Assembly (NCBI GenBank): GCA_017848205.1
Contig: JAGDDO010000296.1
Span: 1-5,425, forward strand
Direction of reading: 5' to 3'
Origin: Oscillospiraceae bacterium
GTDB lineage: Bacteria; Bacillota_A; Clostridia; Oscillospirales; Ruminococcaceae
DNA: 5,425 bases
Of this stretch, positions 2 through 5,425 are shown piece by piece. The position numbers and the translations under genes were made by a program. How positions within the stretch are numbered: position 1 is the stretch's first letter; every line of letters starts with the position of its first letter. Under the pieces are notes generated by a model. The model worked only from the letters and a program-made list of their open reading frames with translations. It ran no database searches and was not told the origin of the DNA.

Positions 2-313
2 TCAGACTACGATACAACTGTTCACTTCATCACTGAAGAAGAACTTATAAAGAACCACAGCGGAATCCCGCACGGCGGTTTCGTTATCCGCACAGGTACA
101 ACTGGTGAAAATAACCAGACAAAGCACACTGTAGAATTCAGCCTCAAGCTCGGTTCAAACCCTGAATTCACATCAAGCGTTCTTTGTGCATTTGCAAGAG
201 CTGCTTACAGACTCAACGCTGAAGGCGTAAGCGGATGCAAGACTATATTTGATATTGCTCCTGCATATCTCTGCAAGCAGAATCCTGATGAACTCAGATC
301 ACATTTACTTTAA
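2..313 (+). CDS. ddh: meso-diaminopimelate D-dehydrogenase, C-terminal part (5' end outside window)
   Basis: An open frame enters from the left edge and ends at TAA 311-313, giving 103 residues of C-terminus. The stretch HGGFVIRTG (visible residues 24-32), followed by HTVEFSLKLGSNPEFTSSV (42-60), an ARAAYRL helix and the ending PDELRSHLL, matches the C-terminal substrate-binding and dimerisation region of diaminopimelate dehydrogenase. By family knowledge, this cytoplasmic NADP-dependent enzyme makes meso-diaminopimelate from tetrahydrodipicolinate in one step, feeding lysine and peptidoglycan synthesis. The N-terminal Rossmann domain and the start lie outside the window. An intrinsic terminator follows about 60 nt downstream, so it is probably the last gene of its transcript. 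It converges on the minus-strand operon and appears unrelated to it. The identification is from motif memory and is strong. Confidence 0.92.
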   Translation, partial: SDYDTTVHFITEEELIKNHSGIPHGGFVIRTGTTGENNQTKHTVEFSLKLGSNPEFTSSVLCAFARAAYRLNAEGVSGCKTIFDIAPAYLCKQNPDELRSHLL

Positions 314-656: not shown

Positions 657-1382
657 TCAGGATAATTTCAGTAAAGTTCTGTTTATATATTCACAGAGCT
701 GTTCTTTGTTATCCGGAATATTAAAATAAAAATGATCTCCGTTAAATGCAAGAGATTCAAATCTGCCGGTCGTACAGTTACGCCACTGATTAATATCTTC
801 ACCGGCATAGATTCTGTCGCCGCGGCCGTAACATACTGTAATGTCAGTATCGATCTCAGGCTTATCGAATTTAGGATGATAGTTATCAGCCATTAAAACG
901 TCATCTCTGAGTATCGGCAGAAGCATATCAAGCATTTCTTTGTTTTCAGAAATCGATACCGGAAGTCCGCCGTATACTGAAAAAGTTCTTATAAATTCCT
1001 CGTCAGAAAGATTTGAAGCACCTGTTATGGTAAATTCCATTTCTGACTGAGGCGCCGGTCTACTGGAAAAAAACGCATGTACAGGGGAAGGGAGTCCGCA
1101 TTTTTTTATTATCTTAATTGTTTCATAAGATATTATAGCTCCGAGACTGTGGCCGAAAAAAGCATAGTTTCCATTTTCAAAGATCTCTTTGTTCTTTATA
1201 AAAACATCTCCTGCGCATTTTACTGCGTCAGTAAATCTTGGTTCGGAAAGTCTGCTTCCACGTCCGGCTATCTCGATCGGAACCACCTTTATAGACGGAT
1301 CAAGAAACTTTTTAAAGCTTGAATAACTTCTTGCTGAGCTGCCTGCATGCGCAAAGAAACACAGCTTTATCTCATTATGCAT
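657..1382 (-). CDS. Type II thioesterase (alpha/beta hydrolase of PKS/NRPS type)
   Basis: This 241-residue protein has the usual length and layout of the GrsT/SrfAD-type external thioesterases. The N-terminal strand CFFAHAGSSARSY (8-20) and the IAGRGSRLSEP block (39-48 region) are typical of the family. The nucleophile elbow is GHSLG with Ser79, and the other triad members are probably Asp189 (in YGRGDRIY) and His217 (in FNGDHFYF), so the enzyme looks intact. The family hydrolyses acyl groups from phosphopantetheine arms of carrier proteins in the cytoplasm, either to clear misprimed carriers or to release product. No signal peptide or membrane segment is seen. The ATG (1380-1382) overlaps the end of the ACP gene by 8 nt and has only a weak AAAGGCG-like ribosome site, which suggests translational coupling. 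Its natural partner is therefore probably that ACP. As the only releasing enzyme in the operon it may be the off-loader rather than a pure editor (inference). Confidence 0.9.
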   Translation of the reverse strand: MHNEIKLCFFAHAGSSARSYSSFKKFLDPSIKVVPIEIAGRGSRLSEPRFTDAVKCAGDVFIKNKEIFENGNYAFFGHSLGAIISYETIKIIKKCGLPSPVHAFFSSRPAPQSEMEFTITGASNLSDEEFIRTFSVYGGLPVSISENKEMLDMLLPILRDDVLMADNYHPKFDKPEIDTDITVCYGRGDRIYAGEDINQWRNCTTGRFESLAFNGDHFYFNIPDNKEQLCEYINRTLLKLS

Positions 1383-1623
1383 TTTTTACGCCTTTTTCAT
1401 TGAGAATATCATACATGTCGCCAACTTTAGCTACAACTGCTACTGAAGAAAGTGCAACTGTAAGTCCGAAAGTTTCAGTAAGCTGTGTACCAAGTCCGAA
1501 TACACCGAGTGAGTCAAGACAAAGATCTTCGTAAATGTCAGTTTCCTTAGTGATCTCTGAAGCGTCAACTCCAACGTAATCTGAAACTTCCTTTACAAAT
1601 TCATCCCAAGAAATGTTGTTCAT
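1375..1623 (-). CDS. Stand-alone acyl carrier protein
   Basis: This is an acidic protein of 82 residues, the normal size for a discrete carrier protein. The phosphopantetheine site is in DLCLDSLG (33-40), with Ser38 as the attachment residue, preceded by a helix-I region (WDEFVKEVSDYVG) and followed by helix II/III sequence (GLGTQLTETFGL and the VGDMYDIL end). It must be activated by a phosphopantetheinyl transferase that is not encoded in the window. It would carry the acyl chain between the ligase, the ketosynthase and the thioesterase. A strong AAGGAG site at 1633-1638 supports the ATG at 1621-1623. The gene is set off from the ligase by 69 nt containing an inverted repeat, unlike the tight spacing elsewhere in the operon, and overlaps the thioesterase start by 8 nt. 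It is unlikely to be the housekeeping AcpP, because the Ser-site sequence is divergent (AcpP usually has a DSLDxVEL-like motif) and because of its operon setting. Peptidyl carrier use cannot be excluded. Confidence 0.9.
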   Translation of the reverse strand: MNNISWDEFVKEVSDYVGVDASEITKETDIYEDLCLDSLGVFGLGTQLTETFGLTVALSSVAVVAKVGDMYDILNEKGVKNA

Positions 1624-1632
1624 AATAATTTA

Positions 1633-1638
1633 CTCCTT
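1633..1638 (-). promoter_or_regulatory. Strong ribosome binding site of the ACP gene
   Basis: On the minus strand AAGGAG (within ATAAGGAGT) lies 9 nt before the ACP ATG. It is a near-perfect anti-16S match, stronger than the coupled thioesterase site, and fits a need for more ACP than enzyme. It fixes the ACP start. Confidence 0.75.
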
Positions 1639-1650
1639 ATAATGTTTGAT

Positions 1651-1687
1651 ACTGACACTCATAAGATTTTATCATCTGAGTGTCAGT
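1651..1687 (-). repeat. Perfect 11-bp inverted repeat between ligase and ACP genes
   Basis: ACTGACACTCA (1651-1661) is exactly complementary to TGAGTGTCAGT (1677-1687), with a 15-nt loop. It starts 5 nt after the ligase stop codon and ends 27 nt before the ACP start, just upstream of the ACP ribosome site. On the coding strand it is followed by ATCAAACATT rather than a T run, so it is not a standard terminator. A role as an mRNA processing or stability element separating the ACP-thioesterase segment, or as a protein-binding site, is possible but inferred only from position. Confidence 0.75.
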
Positions 1688-1692
1688 TTGAA

Positions 1693-3255
1693 TTACTTGT
1701 TATTCTGTTCTCTGAGGTACTTGAACTGAACCTTGCCGACATCCTTAGGGATCTCTTCAACTACGATGACCTTGTCAGGAACCTTGTATGCAGAGAGCTT
1801 TCCTTCGAAGAACTTAGCTATCTCCCCTCTTGTTATTTTCTGGTTATCTACAGTCTGAATATAAGCGATGATCTGCTGACCTATTACCGGGTGAAGATCG
1901 TCAGTTACAGCAGCTGCTTCGATCTTTTCATGTGTAAGGAGGCATGCTTCAACTTCTTCAGCGTGTACGAGATTACCGCCGCGCTTGATAATTCTCTTGC
2001 TTCTTCCGGCAAATCTTACTTTACCGTCCGGAATACGCTTAACGAGGTCACCGGTGAAGAACCAGCGTCTGCCTTCTGAATCAGTCTTAATCTTTTCAGC
2101 TGAAAGTTCCGGATTACCGTAGTAGTCAGGAATAACTGCCGTTGTGTAAATAACGAGTTCGCCCACTTCTTCTTCAGCTTCAATATTATTTCCGTTTGCG
2201 TCAGCAACGATAAAGTCTGTGAAAGGAAGCTTTCTGAAATCGCTCGGGTCTGTTCCCCTGTCCTTGTCGGAATCCCATACTACCATTGTAGCTGTTTCTG
2301 ATGATCCGATAACGTTGATAACTCTGATGCCGAGTTTATCAACGAATGTGTCAGCAATTTCCTTAGGAAGTACTTCACCTGCAAAATAGCAGGCCTTTAC
2401 GCTTGAAAGATCATACTTGTCGAAGTCAGGAGTAGAAAGAAGTACCTTCGCAAGTGTTGATGTGAGCTGGATAACTGTTACCTTGTATTTCTGAACTGTT
2501 TCAAGGAATGTTGCAGCGTTGAACTGCGGCTGATACATAACAGTACCGCCGTTTACTGTAGTCTGAAGGCCCATTCCGAAACCGCCCTGATGATAGAGTG
2601 TCATACCGAGCATCATAACTTCATTTTCGCTGAAGCCAAGATAAGCACCCATATCCACAGCTGCCTGATAGAAACCGTAGTAAGGGATGGAAAGCATTTT
2701 AGGTGTACCTGTGCTACCTGATGTGCACGCAAGATTCATTACGTGGTTTTCTTCCGGAACATATATTTCTGAATAATCATCAGTATATTTACTGAAGAAA
2801 ACTGATGATGAAATGAATTTATCAGAATTTTCAGAATCTGCGTTTTCACCGAAGAATACTACACGTTCAACTGTGAGCTTATCAGGTTCAACTTTCTTAA
2901 CTGCATCTTTTATGTTGTTTGTCTTGTACTTTTCAGCTGCAAAGCAGATCTTTACCTTTGTTGCAGGAATGAGTCGTGAAAGTTCCATTACACCGCTCTG
3001 AGGATCGATCGGTACAGGCTGTGCACCAATTCTTACAGCAGACCAGAATACAATGTACCAGTCAATGCTGTTCGGCATTATAATACCAACCTTATCATCT
3101 TTGCTGATACCGAGGTTTCTCATTCCTGAACTCATTACAGCTGTTCTGTCAAGAAAATCACTGTATGTGAGTTCGTTGTCATCGATACGAAGAAGTACCT
3201 TGTCAGGTGTCTTCGCAGCGTATTCAACATATTTGCTAAAAAAGTTTTCTTTCAT
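1693..3255 (-). CDS. AMP-forming acyl/aryl acid ligase (ANL superfamily, acyl-CoA synthetase-like)
   Basis: This 520-residue protein has full ANL-superfamily architecture. The phosphate-binding loop TSGSTGTPK is at 178-186, the aromatic/acyl pocket region YHQGGFGMGL at 221-230, and the ATP motif GSSET at 317-321. TGD is at 401-403, the hinge GRSKRIIKRGG at 417-427, and a C-terminal catalytic Lys candidate, Lys508, in PKDVGKVQ. The family makes an acyl-AMP from a free carboxylic acid and ATP, then passes the acyl group to CoA or to a carrier-protein thiol. With an ACP gene next in the operon, loading that ACP is the likely job (inference). The pocket motif resembles acyl-CoA synthetases and aryl-acid ligases more than amino-acid adenylation domains, and there is no fused carrier or condensation domain. 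The substrate cannot be read from sequence. The protein is cytoplasmic with no membrane segment. The start ATG has an AGGAAGG-like site about 8 nt upstream and lies 17 nt after the MIF-like gene. Confidence 0.9.
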   Translation of the reverse strand: MKENFFSKYVEYAAKTPDKVLLRIDDNELTYSDFLDRTAVMSSGMRNLGISKDDKVGIIMPNSIDWYIVFWSAVRIGAQPVPIDPQSGVMELSRLIPATKVKICFAAEKYKTNNIKDAVKKVEPDKLTVERVVFFGENADSENSDKFISSSVFFSKYTDDYSEIYVPEENHVMNLACTSGSTGTPKMLSIPYYGFYQAAVDMGAYLGFSENEVMMLGMTLYHQGGFGMGLQTTVNGGTVMYQPQFNAATFLETVQKYKVTVIQLTSTLAKVLLSTPDFDKYDLSSVKACYFAGEVLPKEIADTFVDKLGIRVINVIGSSETATMVVWDSDKDRGTDPSDFRKLPFTDFIVADANGNNIEAEEEVGELVIYTTAVIPDYYGNPELSAEKIKTDSEGRRWFFTGDLVKRIPDGKVRFAGRSKRIIKRGGNLVHAEEVEACLLTHEKIEAAAVTDDLHPVIGQQIIAYIQTVDNQKITRGEIAKFFEGKLSAYKVPDKVIVVEEIPKDVGKVQFKYLREQNNK

Positions 3256-3272
3256 TTAAACTGCCTTCCTTA

Positions 3273-3626
3273 TTATTCTGTATATCGCCAGGCGCCCTCG
3301 CGCGTCATTTCAGTAAACTGCATGTAGACCCTGTAAGGATCGACTGAAGTAAACTTTCTGAACAGTGCAAGAGCTCTGTCAGCAAAATCCTTTAAAAAAG
3401 CGCTTTTTTCTTCAGGTGAAGCAAAGTCCTTTAAATATCTGAACTCTGCAAAAACAACTGTGTCATCTGAATTGTTCATGAACATATACTCCTCAGAAAG
3501 CATAGTCATAACAGCCGGTAAAGGCTTCTCAAGAATAACCGAAAGTTCTGAAGCGACGCTTTTTAAAAATTCTGTTTTCTCTTCCGGTGTGAATTTATAA
3601 TTTGTTTTAATCTGACAAATTGGCAT
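3273..3626 (-). CDS. MIF-like protein (tautomerase superfamily)
   Basis: This 117-residue protein is almost exactly the length of macrophage migration inhibitory factor (about 115). It begins MPICQIKTN, so removal of Met would expose the Pro that is the catalytic base of the tautomerase superfamily. Lys34 in EKPLP aligns with the conserved active-site Lys of MIF. The C-terminal block DPYRVYMQFTEM (96-107), with a Trp at 113, matches the MIF signature DRVYINYYDM. The active-site Tyr (Tyr101) is kept, but the usual Asn two residues on is Gln103, and the CxxC redox motif of animal MIF is absent. Known members are trimeric and interconvert keto and enol forms, for example of phenylpyruvate. The gene is 15 nt after the ketosynthase and 17 nt before the ligase, with a GGAGA site (3633-3637), so it is firmly in the operon. 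A role on a beta-keto or enol intermediate is inferred. No signal peptide is present. Family assignment is strong; function is open. Confidence 0.82.
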   Translation of the reverse strand: MPICQIKTNYKFTPEEKTEFLKSVASELSVILEKPLPAVMTMLSEEYMFMNNSDDTVVFAEFRYLKDFASPEEKSAFLKDFADRALALFRKFTSVDPYRVYMQFTEMTREGAWRYTE

Positions 3627-3641
3627 TTTATATCTCCGTAA

Positions 3642-4850
3642 TTATTTTTCGAAGACGAGAGAAACGTTCTGTCCGCCGAATCCGTATGAATTTGACATTG
3701 CAGTGTTTATCTCTCTCTTCTTTGCTGTATTTGGTGTATAGTCAAGATCGAGTTCCGGATCAGGCACATCATAGTGAATAGTCGGAGGCACAATGTTCTC
3801 ATTAAGTGCCTTGATTGTAACAATCCCTTCGATTACGCTTCCTGCAGCAAGAGTATGTCCTATAGCAGACTTTGTTGATGATACAGAAAGTTCATATGCA
3901 TGCTTTCCGAAAAGATTTTTGATAGCCGTTGTTTCGTACTTGTCGTTGAGATAAGTAGATGTTCCGTGAGCGTTTATATAGTCTACACTGTCAGGTGAAA
4001 CGCCGGCTTTTTTGAGTGCTCTTTCCATAACGATTCTCATACCTTCACCGTCTTCAAGAGGAGCAGTCATGTTTGAAGATTCACTGTAGCAGGCATAGCC
4101 TGAGAGCTTTGCATGAACCTTTGCGTTTCTCTTCTTAGCTGAAGTTTCTGATTCAAGTACTACCGTACCTGCACCTTCACCAAATATAAATCCGTCACGG
4201 TTCTTTGTAAACGGACGTGACGCAGTTTCAGGATCCGGATTTGCTGACATTGCTAGGATCTGGTTAAAGCCGCTTATATTGTCGTGTGTAACATAGTTGG
4301 AAACTCCGCCGGCAATAACCATATCATAAACTCCTGTTTCGATAAGCTGAGCGCCGAGTGCAATAGCATAACCTGAACTTGCGCAGGCGCATGAAAGATT
4401 GAAGCTTGCACCGTGAAAACCAAACTTTTCAGAAATAAGTGAAGGAGCTGAACTTGGCATTGATTTAAGAATGATGTTTGTCATCTTTTCACGTTCAGCA
4501 TCCTCAAAGCCGGCATCTGCAATACCATAAATAACTGCAACTCTGTCTTTGTCATAATTTTCAAGATCGATGCCGCAGTCTTCTATAGCTTCTACTGCAG
4601 TAGCCAGAACAAGTCGTTGTGGACCTGTTACAGTGTTTAACTGTCTTCTTGTCCAGTACTTCTTGCATACAGATTCAAAACCTTCACTGTTTTTAATTTC
4701 AGCTGCAACAGTAGAGTCATGATTTTCTGTTGAAATACGTTCAATTTTACCGAAGCCGCTTTTACCTGCTAAAAGGTTATCCCAGAGCTCACCTACACTG
4801 TCCCCTAATGAGCAAACGGCCCCCATGCCTGTGATTACAACTTTTTCCAT
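3642..4850 (-). CDS. Stand-alone beta-ketoacyl-ACP synthase, KAS II (FabF)-like
   Basis: This 402-residue protein has a complete thiolase-fold ketosynthase, close to the 410-odd residues of FabF. The N-terminus VVITGMGAVCSLG is typical. The nucleophile is Cys156 in SCACASSG (153-160), and the two catalytic histidines are His295 (NAHGTST) and His332 (GHTLAAG), with Lys327 in STKSAIGH. The spacings match FabF, so it should be a condensing enzyme and not a chain-length factor. It joins an acyl group held on the Cys with malonyl-ACP to give a beta-ketoacyl-ACP in the cytoplasm. Two features differ from housekeeping FabF: a second Cys two residues before the nucleophile, and GFGGQN (390-395) where GFGGTN is usual. 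It is first in the operon, with a strong GGAGGGAG site (4857-4864) fixing the start. The neighbouring ligase, dedicated ACP and thioesterase point to a specialised pathway rather than bulk fatty-acid synthesis. The absence of fabD/fabG/acpP neighbours agrees. Confidence 0.93.
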   Translation of the reverse strand: MEKVVITGMGAVCSLGDSVGELWDNLLAGKSGFGKIERISTENHDSTVAAEIKNSEGFESVCKKYWTRRQLNTVTGPQRLVLATAVEAIEDCGIDLENYDKDRVAVIYGIADAGFEDAEREKMTNIILKSMPSSAPSLISEKFGFHGASFNLSCACASSGYAIALGAQLIETGVYDMVIAGGVSNYVTHDNISGFNQILAMSANPDPETASRPFTKNRDGFIFGEGAGTVVLESETSAKKRNAKVHAKLSGYACYSESSNMTAPLEDGEGMRIVMERALKKAGVSPDSVDYINAHGTSTYLNDKYETTAIKNLFGKHAYELSVSSTKSAIGHTLAAGSVIEGIVTIKALNENIVPPTIHYDVPDPELDLDYTPNTAKKREINTAMSNSYGFGGQNVSLVFEK

Positions 4851-4856
4851 TTGTTA

Positions 4857-4864
4857 CTCCCTCC
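4857..4864 (-). promoter_or_regulatory. Strong ribosome binding site of the ketosynthase gene
   Basis: On the minus strand GGAGGGAG lies 6 nt before the ATG at 4848-4850. It is the strongest ribosome site of the operon and fixes the ketosynthase start at the first gene. Confidence 0.75.
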
Positions 4865-4962
4865 GAATTTCAATAATTAATTTATTTACCCATCTTATTT
4901 ACAATACAATTCTAATTTTCTAAAACACATAATCATTTATACTAAGGAAACAATGATTTAAC
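4865..4962 (-). promoter_or_regulatory. AT-rich leader, likely operon promoter region
   Basis: This AT-rich stretch directly precedes the ketosynthase gene and is the only sizeable gap upstream of the operon, so the promoter probably lies here. The best -10-like hexamer is TATAAA on the minus strand (4936-4941), but no convincing -35 is found 16-18 nt before it. TTGTAT (4904-4909) has only poor -10 partners. An 8-bp direct repeat (TTATTTAC on the plus strand, 4882-4889 and 4895-4902, 13-nt period) could be an operator. All are weak calls. Confidence 0.35.
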
Positions 4963-5026
4963 CGGAAATCCGGCAAAGCCGGATTTCCGCAGGTGGGATT
5001 TGCGGGGCTTCGCCCCGGAGCCCCAC
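4963..5026. repeat. Paired GC-rich palindromes (REP-like)
   Basis: There are two adjacent hairpins. CGGAAATCCGGC (4963-4974) pairs perfectly with 4978-4989 around an AAA loop. GTGGG (4993-4997) pairs with CCCAC (5022-5026), enclosing an inner stem CGGGGC/GCCCCG (5003-5008 with 5012-5017) around TTC. G+C is much higher than in the flanks. Read on the minus strand, downstream of the 5046 gene, no T run follows either stem. On the plus strand ATTTTTA follows 4 nt after the second. It could end transcription of the upstream gene, insulating the operon, or be a dispersed REP-like or MITE-like element. The GGGGCTTCGCCCC core is the sort of palindrome found repeated between genes in many bacteria (from memory, not checked). 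Confidence 0.6.
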
Positions 5027-5045
5027 GCTGATTTTTATATACTTA

Positions 5046-5425
5046 TTACTTAAGGAGTCTTTCAGCGATGAAGTCTGAAGCTATATGCTTTACCCAGTGG
5101 AACTGTTCACCTACAGGCATTGCATGCATGATAGTTTCTTCTGAAACATATGCAGGCTTTTCGTCGATCTCAAGACCTTCCTTGTATCCTGTTGCTCTGT
5201 CAAGCATTGAAAGTGACGCGTTTCTGTCCATCCAGTTGTCATCTCCGCTGTATACAAGAAGGAAATCACAGTCAACTGTGCCTTCTTCGAGAAGCTTCAT
5301 TTCATTAAAGAACTTCTGATCATCATTCGTACCATACTGTAATACAGCCCACTTACCGTGCTTCATCCAGATCGGTATAGAATCTGTGTCAGCAATACTC
5401 ATGAAGAGAGGGAAAAGGCTTACAC
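5046..5425 (-). CDS. Unidentified protein, possible alpha/beta-hydrolase C-terminus (5' end outside window)
   Basis: The frame is open from the right edge to TAA (5046-5048), giving at least 125 residues. The Met at 5400-5402 is internal or only a possible start, because the frame continues upstream (VSLFPLF) with no stop and there is no good ribosome site. A hydrophobic strand followed by an acidic turn, CDFLLVYSGDDNW (residues 45-57 from that Met), and a late HW in VGEQFHWVKH (97-106), resemble the Asp and His ends of alpha/beta hydrolases. YGTNDDQKFFNEM recalls family S37-type peptidases. These resemblances are weak and I do not assign a function. The gene lies 195 nt upstream of the ketosynthase on the same strand, beyond a GC-rich palindrome, so it is probably a separate transcript but read-through is possible. 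Confidence 0.6.
   Translation of the reverse strand, partial: VSLFPLFMSIADTDSIPIWMKHGKWAVLQYGTNDDQKFFNEMKLLEEGTVDCDFLLVYSGDDNWMDRNASLSMLDRATGYKEGLEIDEKPAYVSEETIMHAMPVGEQFHWVKHIASDFIAERLLK

Follow-up and report, generated by a model that had tools for sequence, protein, structure and literature searches.

The window and its thirteen-gene cluster

The window, the whole stretch of 5,425 nucleotides analysed here (Oscillospiraceae bacterium, assembly GCA_017848205.1, contig JAGDDO010000296.1), contains five complete genes on the minus strand that probably form the 3' end of a larger biosynthetic cluster, which comprises thirteen genes and belongs to gut Ruminococcus and its near relatives. In their direction of reading, they encode a KAS II- or FabF-like ketosynthase (KS, 3642..4850), a MIF-type tautomerase (3273..3626), an AMP-forming acyl or aryl acid ligase (1693..3255), an acyl carrier protein with a DSL serine (ACP2, 1375..1623) and a type II thioesterase of the alpha/beta hydrolase type (TE, 657..1382). 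Open reading frames (ORFs) and family matches confirmed the five co-directional genes, the gaps of 15, 17 and 69 nucleotides, the single 8-nucleotide overlap and the intact motifs described in an earlier note on this DNA. The catalytic residues examined across the cluster are invariant or almost so. Cys-His-His and Lys are intact in the KS, the only one of the cluster, with all four residues invariant in 62 copies, and Pro-1 (P2), Lys (K34) and Tyr (Y101) of the tautomerase are invariant in 65 of 65 copies. TSGSTG and GK[IV]QFK motifs are present in all 58 uncut ligase copies, DS[LM] in 57 of 57 uncut ACP2 copies and GxSxG in 56 of 56 uncut copies of the TE (PF00975, E 4e-29). The MIF-like protein gives the weakest Pfam match of the five and is MIF-type by profile and model. 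Mean column identity of the ligase is 77% over 20 aligned copies and its family matches scatter across aryl and fatty acid ligases.

Locus L001 is 98.2% identical to the window at the DNA level across its full length and, judged by this identity, is the window's species. It carries eight further genes upstream of the five on the same strand, encoding a FabD-like acyltransferase (AT), a first carrier protein (ACP1), the enoyl-CoA hydratase ECHa, a hotdog thioesterase (HBT), ORF5, a further hydratase (ECHc), a 3-hydroxyacyl-CoA dehydrogenase (HCDH) and an AntI/FrsA-like hydrolase. The C-terminal 125 residues of the latter, a Cys hydrolase, are encoded at 5046..5423 of the window (minus strand), where the gene extends past the window edge; this fragment corresponds to the end of L001:5464-6603 (379 aa) and lies inside the 98.2% match.

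To describe the cluster in relatives, we used 64 loci found when the MIF alignment (two peptide patterns) was run against a collection of species genomes. Their record names are Ruminococcus, Oscillospiraceae and, in one case, Bacillota; L067 and L068, on contigs as long as those of L032 and L064, are not additional loci. Twenty of the 64 are Ruminococcus flavefaciens by name, including nine isolates (FD-1, YAD2003, SAb67, ND2009, Y1, YL228, ATCC 19208, MA2007 and 007c), and two are isolates of Ruminococcus albus (AR67 and KH2T6). The standard order AT-ACP1-ECHa-HBT-ORF5-ECHc-HCDH-KS-MIF-hydrolase-ligase-ACP2-TE is exact in 42/64 loci at a bit score above 35. Thirteen separate matches are found in 46/64 loci; L013 and L015 have the standard order with an additional ligase-like match elsewhere, and in L001 and L002 all thirteen are present, the hydrolase lying between HCDH and KS. 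The MIF-to-TE stretch is present in 57 loci, and in the remaining seven (L004, L012, L017, L029, L035, L040 and L042) the contig breaks off inside the hydrolase or ligase gene or directly behind it. Upstream and co-stranded, AT is found in 55/64 loci and HCDH in 62/64. Genes in the 46 full loci are tightly spaced, with a median of 1 nucleotide and 95% of 552 gaps at or below 60 nucleotides. Six loci apparently without ECHc or ORF5 were rechecked by tblastn, which recovered ORF5 in L012, L026 and L033. Flanking ORFs, one crudely picked per locus and side, form 23 groups on each side, for 47 loci upstream and 48 downstream; the largest group on either side comprises 18 loci. The most distant cluster, L065 in genome G492, keeps all thirteen genes in order at 33% identity for the MIF protein and 61% for the ligase.

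The hydrolase gene has been relocated between HCDH and KS in the window's lineage. A second AMP ligase lies beside ACP2 and TE at L065:4275-5855 and at G900:C8:20340-21938 (L076/L077), the two being 46% identical to each other, while L010 and L022 have an extra ligase of another kind downstream of TE. A second ligase was rejected as a core gene, as it is of one kind in L065 and G900 and of another in L010 and L022; the L065/G900 kind was not seen in most Ruminococcus clusters.

The earlier note had read the five genes as a minimal operon with no acyltransferase or ketoreductase, borrowing malonyl transfer from primary metabolism. On these points it has to be revised: the window truncates the thirteen-gene cluster seen in L001 and relatives, a FabD-like AT and HCDH lie upstream in the full cluster, and the cluster thus has its own AT together with a second ACP. 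Its view of a dedicated conserved unit stands, and the outcome it had proposed as a test, conserved gene order with divergent flanks, was observed, including in the distant L065. Also as it stated, no condensation domain and no phosphopantetheinyl transferase (PPTase) is matched among the scanned window and L001 proteins.

Ketosynthase, reductive enzymes and hydrolase

The cluster KS and ACPs are distinct from those of primary metabolism. The earlier note had raised the possibility that they are simply the genome's sole FabF and AcpP; this was rejected, as further KSs are present in 6/6 genomes and a further ACP in 5/5. KS matches number two to seven per cluster-bearing genome, the cluster KS included, and in the five genomes the separate ACP lies above the acyl_carrier cut-off with both cluster ACPs well below it. 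The window KS is 37-40% identical to five other KSs of these genomes and scores 401.6 bits against the NCBI fabF equivalog, below the cut-off of 493.75. In a KS tree, the cluster KSs fall on one side of a branch with support of 97/98 and six FabF-like KSs fall opposite; the FabF side is weakly supported (45/15) and the sole type I polyketide synthase (PKS) row, L086, is poor with a branch length of 5.6.

HCDH belongs to PF02737 and the ECH proteins are crotonases of PF00378, with active-site residues intact in HCDH and both hydratases. ECHc and HCDH are encoded in one ORF, hydratase first, at L003:4955-6760 and L004:306-2099. The hotdog protein (4HBT-type) matches thioesterase families, including the acyl-ACP thioesterase C-terminal model. 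ORF5, 194 aa in L001, has no family match and may be a degenerate, crotonase-derived protein. No enoyl reductase was seen within the cluster.

Compared by profile with solved structures, the hydrolase matches AntI of Photorhabdus first (E 8e-20, positions 46-352 of 377), followed by dihydroxy-pseudo-oxynicotine hydrolase and Ayg1-type proteins, and the L001 protein is above the cut-off for PF06500. AntI and Ayg1 both use a Ser nucleophile, Ser245 in AntI, and shorten polyketides destined to be pigments (PMC11165489). The cluster hydrolase lacks the GxSxG nucleophilic Ser of AntI/Ayg1/FrsA-like hydrolases and has Cys at the nucleophile position in 63/63 copies. Of 220 homologues fetched, 205 also match a motif with this Cys and 15 do not match the pattern. 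Among the matches listed, homologues outside Ruminococcus come from [Clostridium] polysaccharolyticum, Pseudobacteroides cellulosolvens, Chloroflexota, Spirochaetales, Fibrobacterales and Polyangiaceae.

Genome G900 carries a hydrolase-ligase-second ligase-ACP2-TE subset without KS, AT, HCDH and ECH, and no other cluster gene matched in the preceding 17 kb or the following 15 kb. Because the hydrolase-to-TE set stands alone there, the cluster seems to consist of two modules, one for chain building (AT to MIF) and one for acid activation and release (hydrolase to TE), a division drawn from this one genome. G900 was found in the family reached via G858, a genome with two GH48 genes, which may be the family of Acetivibrio and where a hydrolase match is absent in 12/14 genomes, weak in G735 (E 4e-7) and strong in G900. 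A sample of 391 genomes of the class yielded a strong hydrolase match only in its centre genome G004, with weak matches in G568 and G756, which lack the cluster. Kinship of the hydrolase to CexE, for which the Pseudobacteroides proteins P0235 and P0236 were a lead, is not claimed: the gene context in G900 is not cex-like and no CexE sequence was compared. None of the best 120 of 151 matches in a search with the P0235 hydrolase is named Acetivibrio, most rows being without an organism name.

Proposed assembly line and alternatives

We read the cluster, with fair confidence, as a dissociated assembly line of polyketide or fatty-acid type; its product would be an unsaturated compound, either acyl or polyketide. 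The reading rests on the genes that relatives carry, on their synteny and shared direction, on family kinship and conserved catalytic residues, and on the ECHc-HCDH fusion and the separate KS and ACP genes. The ligase would adenylate a free carboxylic acid and transfer it to ACP2, while the FabD-like AT would charge ACP1 with malonyl and the KS would join the ACP2-bound acyl group with the malonyl unit. HCDH would then reduce the beta-keto group, with an S-hydroxy product expected as in reversed beta-oxidation, and the crotonases, which together with HCDH would amount to a split FadB, would dehydrate it. Because the cluster shows no enoyl reductase, double bonds would be retained over repeated rounds. 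The MIF-type tautomerase may shift a keto-enol or double-bond proton of an intermediate. The AntI/Ayg1-family hydrolase (Cys-His-Asp) may trim, release or cyclise the chain, and the two thioesterases may edit or unload it. Substrates, step order, number of rounds and product are inferred. The short beta-keto or enol-derived product proposed in the earlier note is an unlikely end point because the full cluster has an AT, a second ACP, HCDH and two hydratases.

Several observations weigh against this reading. The window itself reveals only the end of the hydrolase, the complete cluster being known from relatives, and the copies counted take in close relatives. In L035, tblastn found ECHc as fragments only and no ORF5. 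The L001 AT scores 27.9 bits against a Pfam cut-off of 32.7, and its match to the FabD model (E 3e-31) is below the equivalog cut-off. The window KS barely passes the generic subfamily PRK07314 (388.2 vs 387 bits) and the HCDH Asn differs in 1/61 copies. HCDH and ECH families usually take CoA rather than ACP thioesters, and the ligase could yield a CoA thioester rather than a charged ACP. The second half of the cluster may have an independent function, as G900 indicates.

A catabolic or fermentative acyl pathway, in which an acid activated by the ligase would be degraded via ECH, HCDH and the condensing enzyme and its products released by the thioesterases, appears improbable. ECH and HCDH do belong to beta-oxidation families and are fused in a FadB-like manner in L003 and L004, but the unit also holds two ACPs and a FabD-like AT, its condensing enzyme, a KS, has Cys-His-His-Lys and a thiolase match that is only marginal, and no acyl-CoA dehydrogenase is matched among the scanned window and L001 proteins. 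FabF- and FabD-like parts, dedicated ACPs and the hotdog thioesterase matching an acyl-ACP thioesterase model would also suit an unusual acyl chain for ruminococcal membrane or surface lipids instead of a secondary metabolite. Such a specialised lipid is a poor fit to the patchy spread of the MIF gene, found in 50/125 genomes of one genus and 4/29 of another; a structural lipid would not be expected to involve a free-acid ligase, a tautomerase or an AntI-like hydrolase, no glycerolipid acyltransferase is matched among the same scanned proteins, and we give this explanation little weight. The earlier view that ligase, ACP, KS, MIF and TE alone yield a short beta-keto or enol product, with malonyl transfer and the rest supplied by primary metabolism, is very unlikely. 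The five genes do adjoin, co-directionally and with intact motifs, hairpin-containing gaps of 195 nucleotides in the window and 173 in L001 part them from the hydrolase so that an own transcript is possible, and G900 illustrates a partial set standing alone. This view is opposed by the upstream, co-stranded AT and HCDH in most of the 64 loci and by L001, which is of the same species and carries all thirteen genes.

Understood as an assembly line, the cluster resembles several known systems in part. It shares hydrolase kinship with fungal Ayg1-type systems and with the Photorhabdus ant type II PKS, and both ant and the cluster are dissociated, with chains on ACP in ant and probably in the cluster. 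In contrast to ant, the cluster has Cys in place of AntI Ser245, a single KS without a chain-length factor, and reductive enzymes of the beta-oxidation type. Aromatic type II PKSs are marked by a ketosynthase paired with a chain-length factor, a KS lacking Cys, whereas each of the 46 full loci has one KS match. Discrete enzymes and free ACPs are shared features, the cluster encoding two free ACPs and separate ORFs apart from the ECHc-HCDH fusion in L003 and L004, with action on ACP probable. The same hydratase-first arrangement of ECHc and HCDH is found in FadB/FadJ, but in the cluster the two enzymes accompany two ACPs, AT and KS and, because these adjoin, probably run in the synthetic direction on ACP. 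Aryl polyene (APE) clusters likewise have discrete genes for ligase, ACPs, KS, reductase, dehydratase and thioesterase. They have a short-chain dehydrogenase/reductase-type ketoreductase, one or more hotdog dehydratases and a KS pair; the cluster instead has HCDH, crotonases and one KS, with an extra tautomerase and AntI-like hydrolase. The MIF-type protein shares the fold of the MIF/tautomerase superfamily as well as the N-terminal Pro-1, Lys and Tyr that have a role in it, and differs from other members in being part of a ketosynthase cluster. Text searches for a pairing of MIF with ketosynthase gave no paper other than one dinoflagellate genomics review.

By gene list, no CexE or CexD sequence having been compared, the cluster is similar to the celluxanthene/flavoaffinin clusters (cex/faf) that Acetivibrio thermocellus and other cellulolytic clostridia carry, with which it shares an AMP-dependent synthetase, a free ACP, an alpha/beta-hydrolase and cellulolytic anaerobic hosts (PMC12144888, PMC11839114). 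The iterative type I PKS CexF, two KASIII enzymes and a PPTase reported there for cex (PMC12144888) are absent from the thirteen genes. Polyketide-type natural products are described as scarce in obligate anaerobes in one preprint (PMC11839114). We found no account of the present cluster in the literature, subscription papers and supplements lying outside the search. The cluster is real, conserved, larger than first noted and chemically unusual. It recurs in gut Ruminococcus and brings together a ketosynthase line, reductive enzymes of the beta-oxidation type, a MIF-type tautomerase and a Cys-type hydrolase of a polyketide-trimming family.

Cellulose association, pigment and flanking features

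As a special case of the assembly-line reading, the product could be the yellow pigment of cellulolytic ruminococci, a conjugated (aryl) polyene built from an activated aromatic acid. We regard this as doubtful. The absence of an enoyl reductase agrees with polyene-type logic, and in a family sample GH48 is present in 13/13 genomes with strong MIF matches vs 53/396 overall (Fisher p 1e-12). In that sample 15/396 genomes pass E 0.001; the weak matches in G187 and G259 (E ~1e-4), which lack the cluster and GH48, were set aside, and with them the count is 13/15. The cluster itself was read in seven of the 13 (G001, G002, G004, G243, G283, G306 and G492, corresponding to L001, L002, L052, L066, L068, L067 and L065), the other six being counted by their MIF gene. 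Within the genus that includes R. albus AR67 (G005), GH48 is found in 4/4 MIF carriers vs 7/29 overall (p 0.0015), a comparison that overlaps the family sample and is not independent of it. The MIF gene was observed in 4/29 genomes of this genus, so the cluster is not strictly genus-bound. R. flavefaciens is described as producing a yellow pigment, especially on cellulose, and one isolation study records the same for R. albus and R. flavefaciens isolates on cellulose. The review PMC9785684 states that pigment intensity of cellulolytic ruminococci approximately follows cellulolytic ability.

Other evidence opposes the pigment explanation. Within the genus to which R. flavefaciens ATCC 19208 belongs, a link to GH48 was rejected: the MIF gene is present in 50/125 and GH48 in 112/125 of its genomes, with GH48 in 46/50 genomes with MIF vs 66/75 without (p 0.56). 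Kinship confounds the family-level link and accounts for part of it. GH48 occurs in 18/391 class-sample genomes, including G756 and G004, and as the strong hydrolase match was confined to G004, the cluster is no general trait of GH48-bearing clostridia. The acid used by the ligase is not fixed as aromatic, and proteome and transcript papers on R. flavefaciens and R. albus yield no such pathway in passages matching pigment or polyketide words. ATCC 19208 and FD-1 also hold separate large KS genes. In ATCC 19208, L087:2192-9238 encodes a 2348-aa hybrid with KS, condensation, methyltransferase, adenylation, peptidyl carrier protein and thioesterase parts, accompanied by a separate acyltransferase and an ABC transporter; because of this hybrid, other colour sources exist. 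In FD-1, an ORF of 2490 aa at L086:7274-14746 matches KS, and the same contig holds more KS matches.

The present cluster occurs in R. flavefaciens ATCC 19208 (L052), a strain that we take to be identical with DSM 25089. For DSM 25089, PMC12144888 reports that a cex-like cluster is absent and that celluxanthenes are absent in culture. In C. thermocellum, the yellow affinity substance is celluxanthene, an aryl polyene incorporating phenylacetate (PMC12144888). The present cluster is thus a candidate source for the R. flavefaciens pigment, for which a search in 2025 found no cex cluster. It is conceivable, if unlikely, that this route is a second origin of a yellow affinity substance, independent of the celluxanthenes, with FadB-like reductive enzymes and a rumen aromatic acid as starter; phenylacetic or 3-phenylpropanoic acid would be guesses for the latter. 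R. albus requires 3-phenylpropanoic acid for growth on cellulose, and the pigment explanation, if true, might bear on this need.

The 195-nucleotide gap between hydrolase and KS (4851..5045, minus strand) is AT-rich and contains two strong hairpins, one of GGGGCGAAGCCCC type and one of AAATCCGGCTTTGCCGGATTT type along the gene direction, with a predicted fold of -55.7 kcal/mol. The corresponding gap of 173 nucleotides in L001 resembles it, while that of L002 is 44 nucleotides long and without hairpins. A terminator, a repeat or an extra promoter are possible explanations for this gap. At the other end of the window, the end of a diaminopimelate dehydrogenase gene (2-313, plus strand) is convergent with the cluster, and an inverted repeat at ~510-552, terminator-like by eye, lies between the two.

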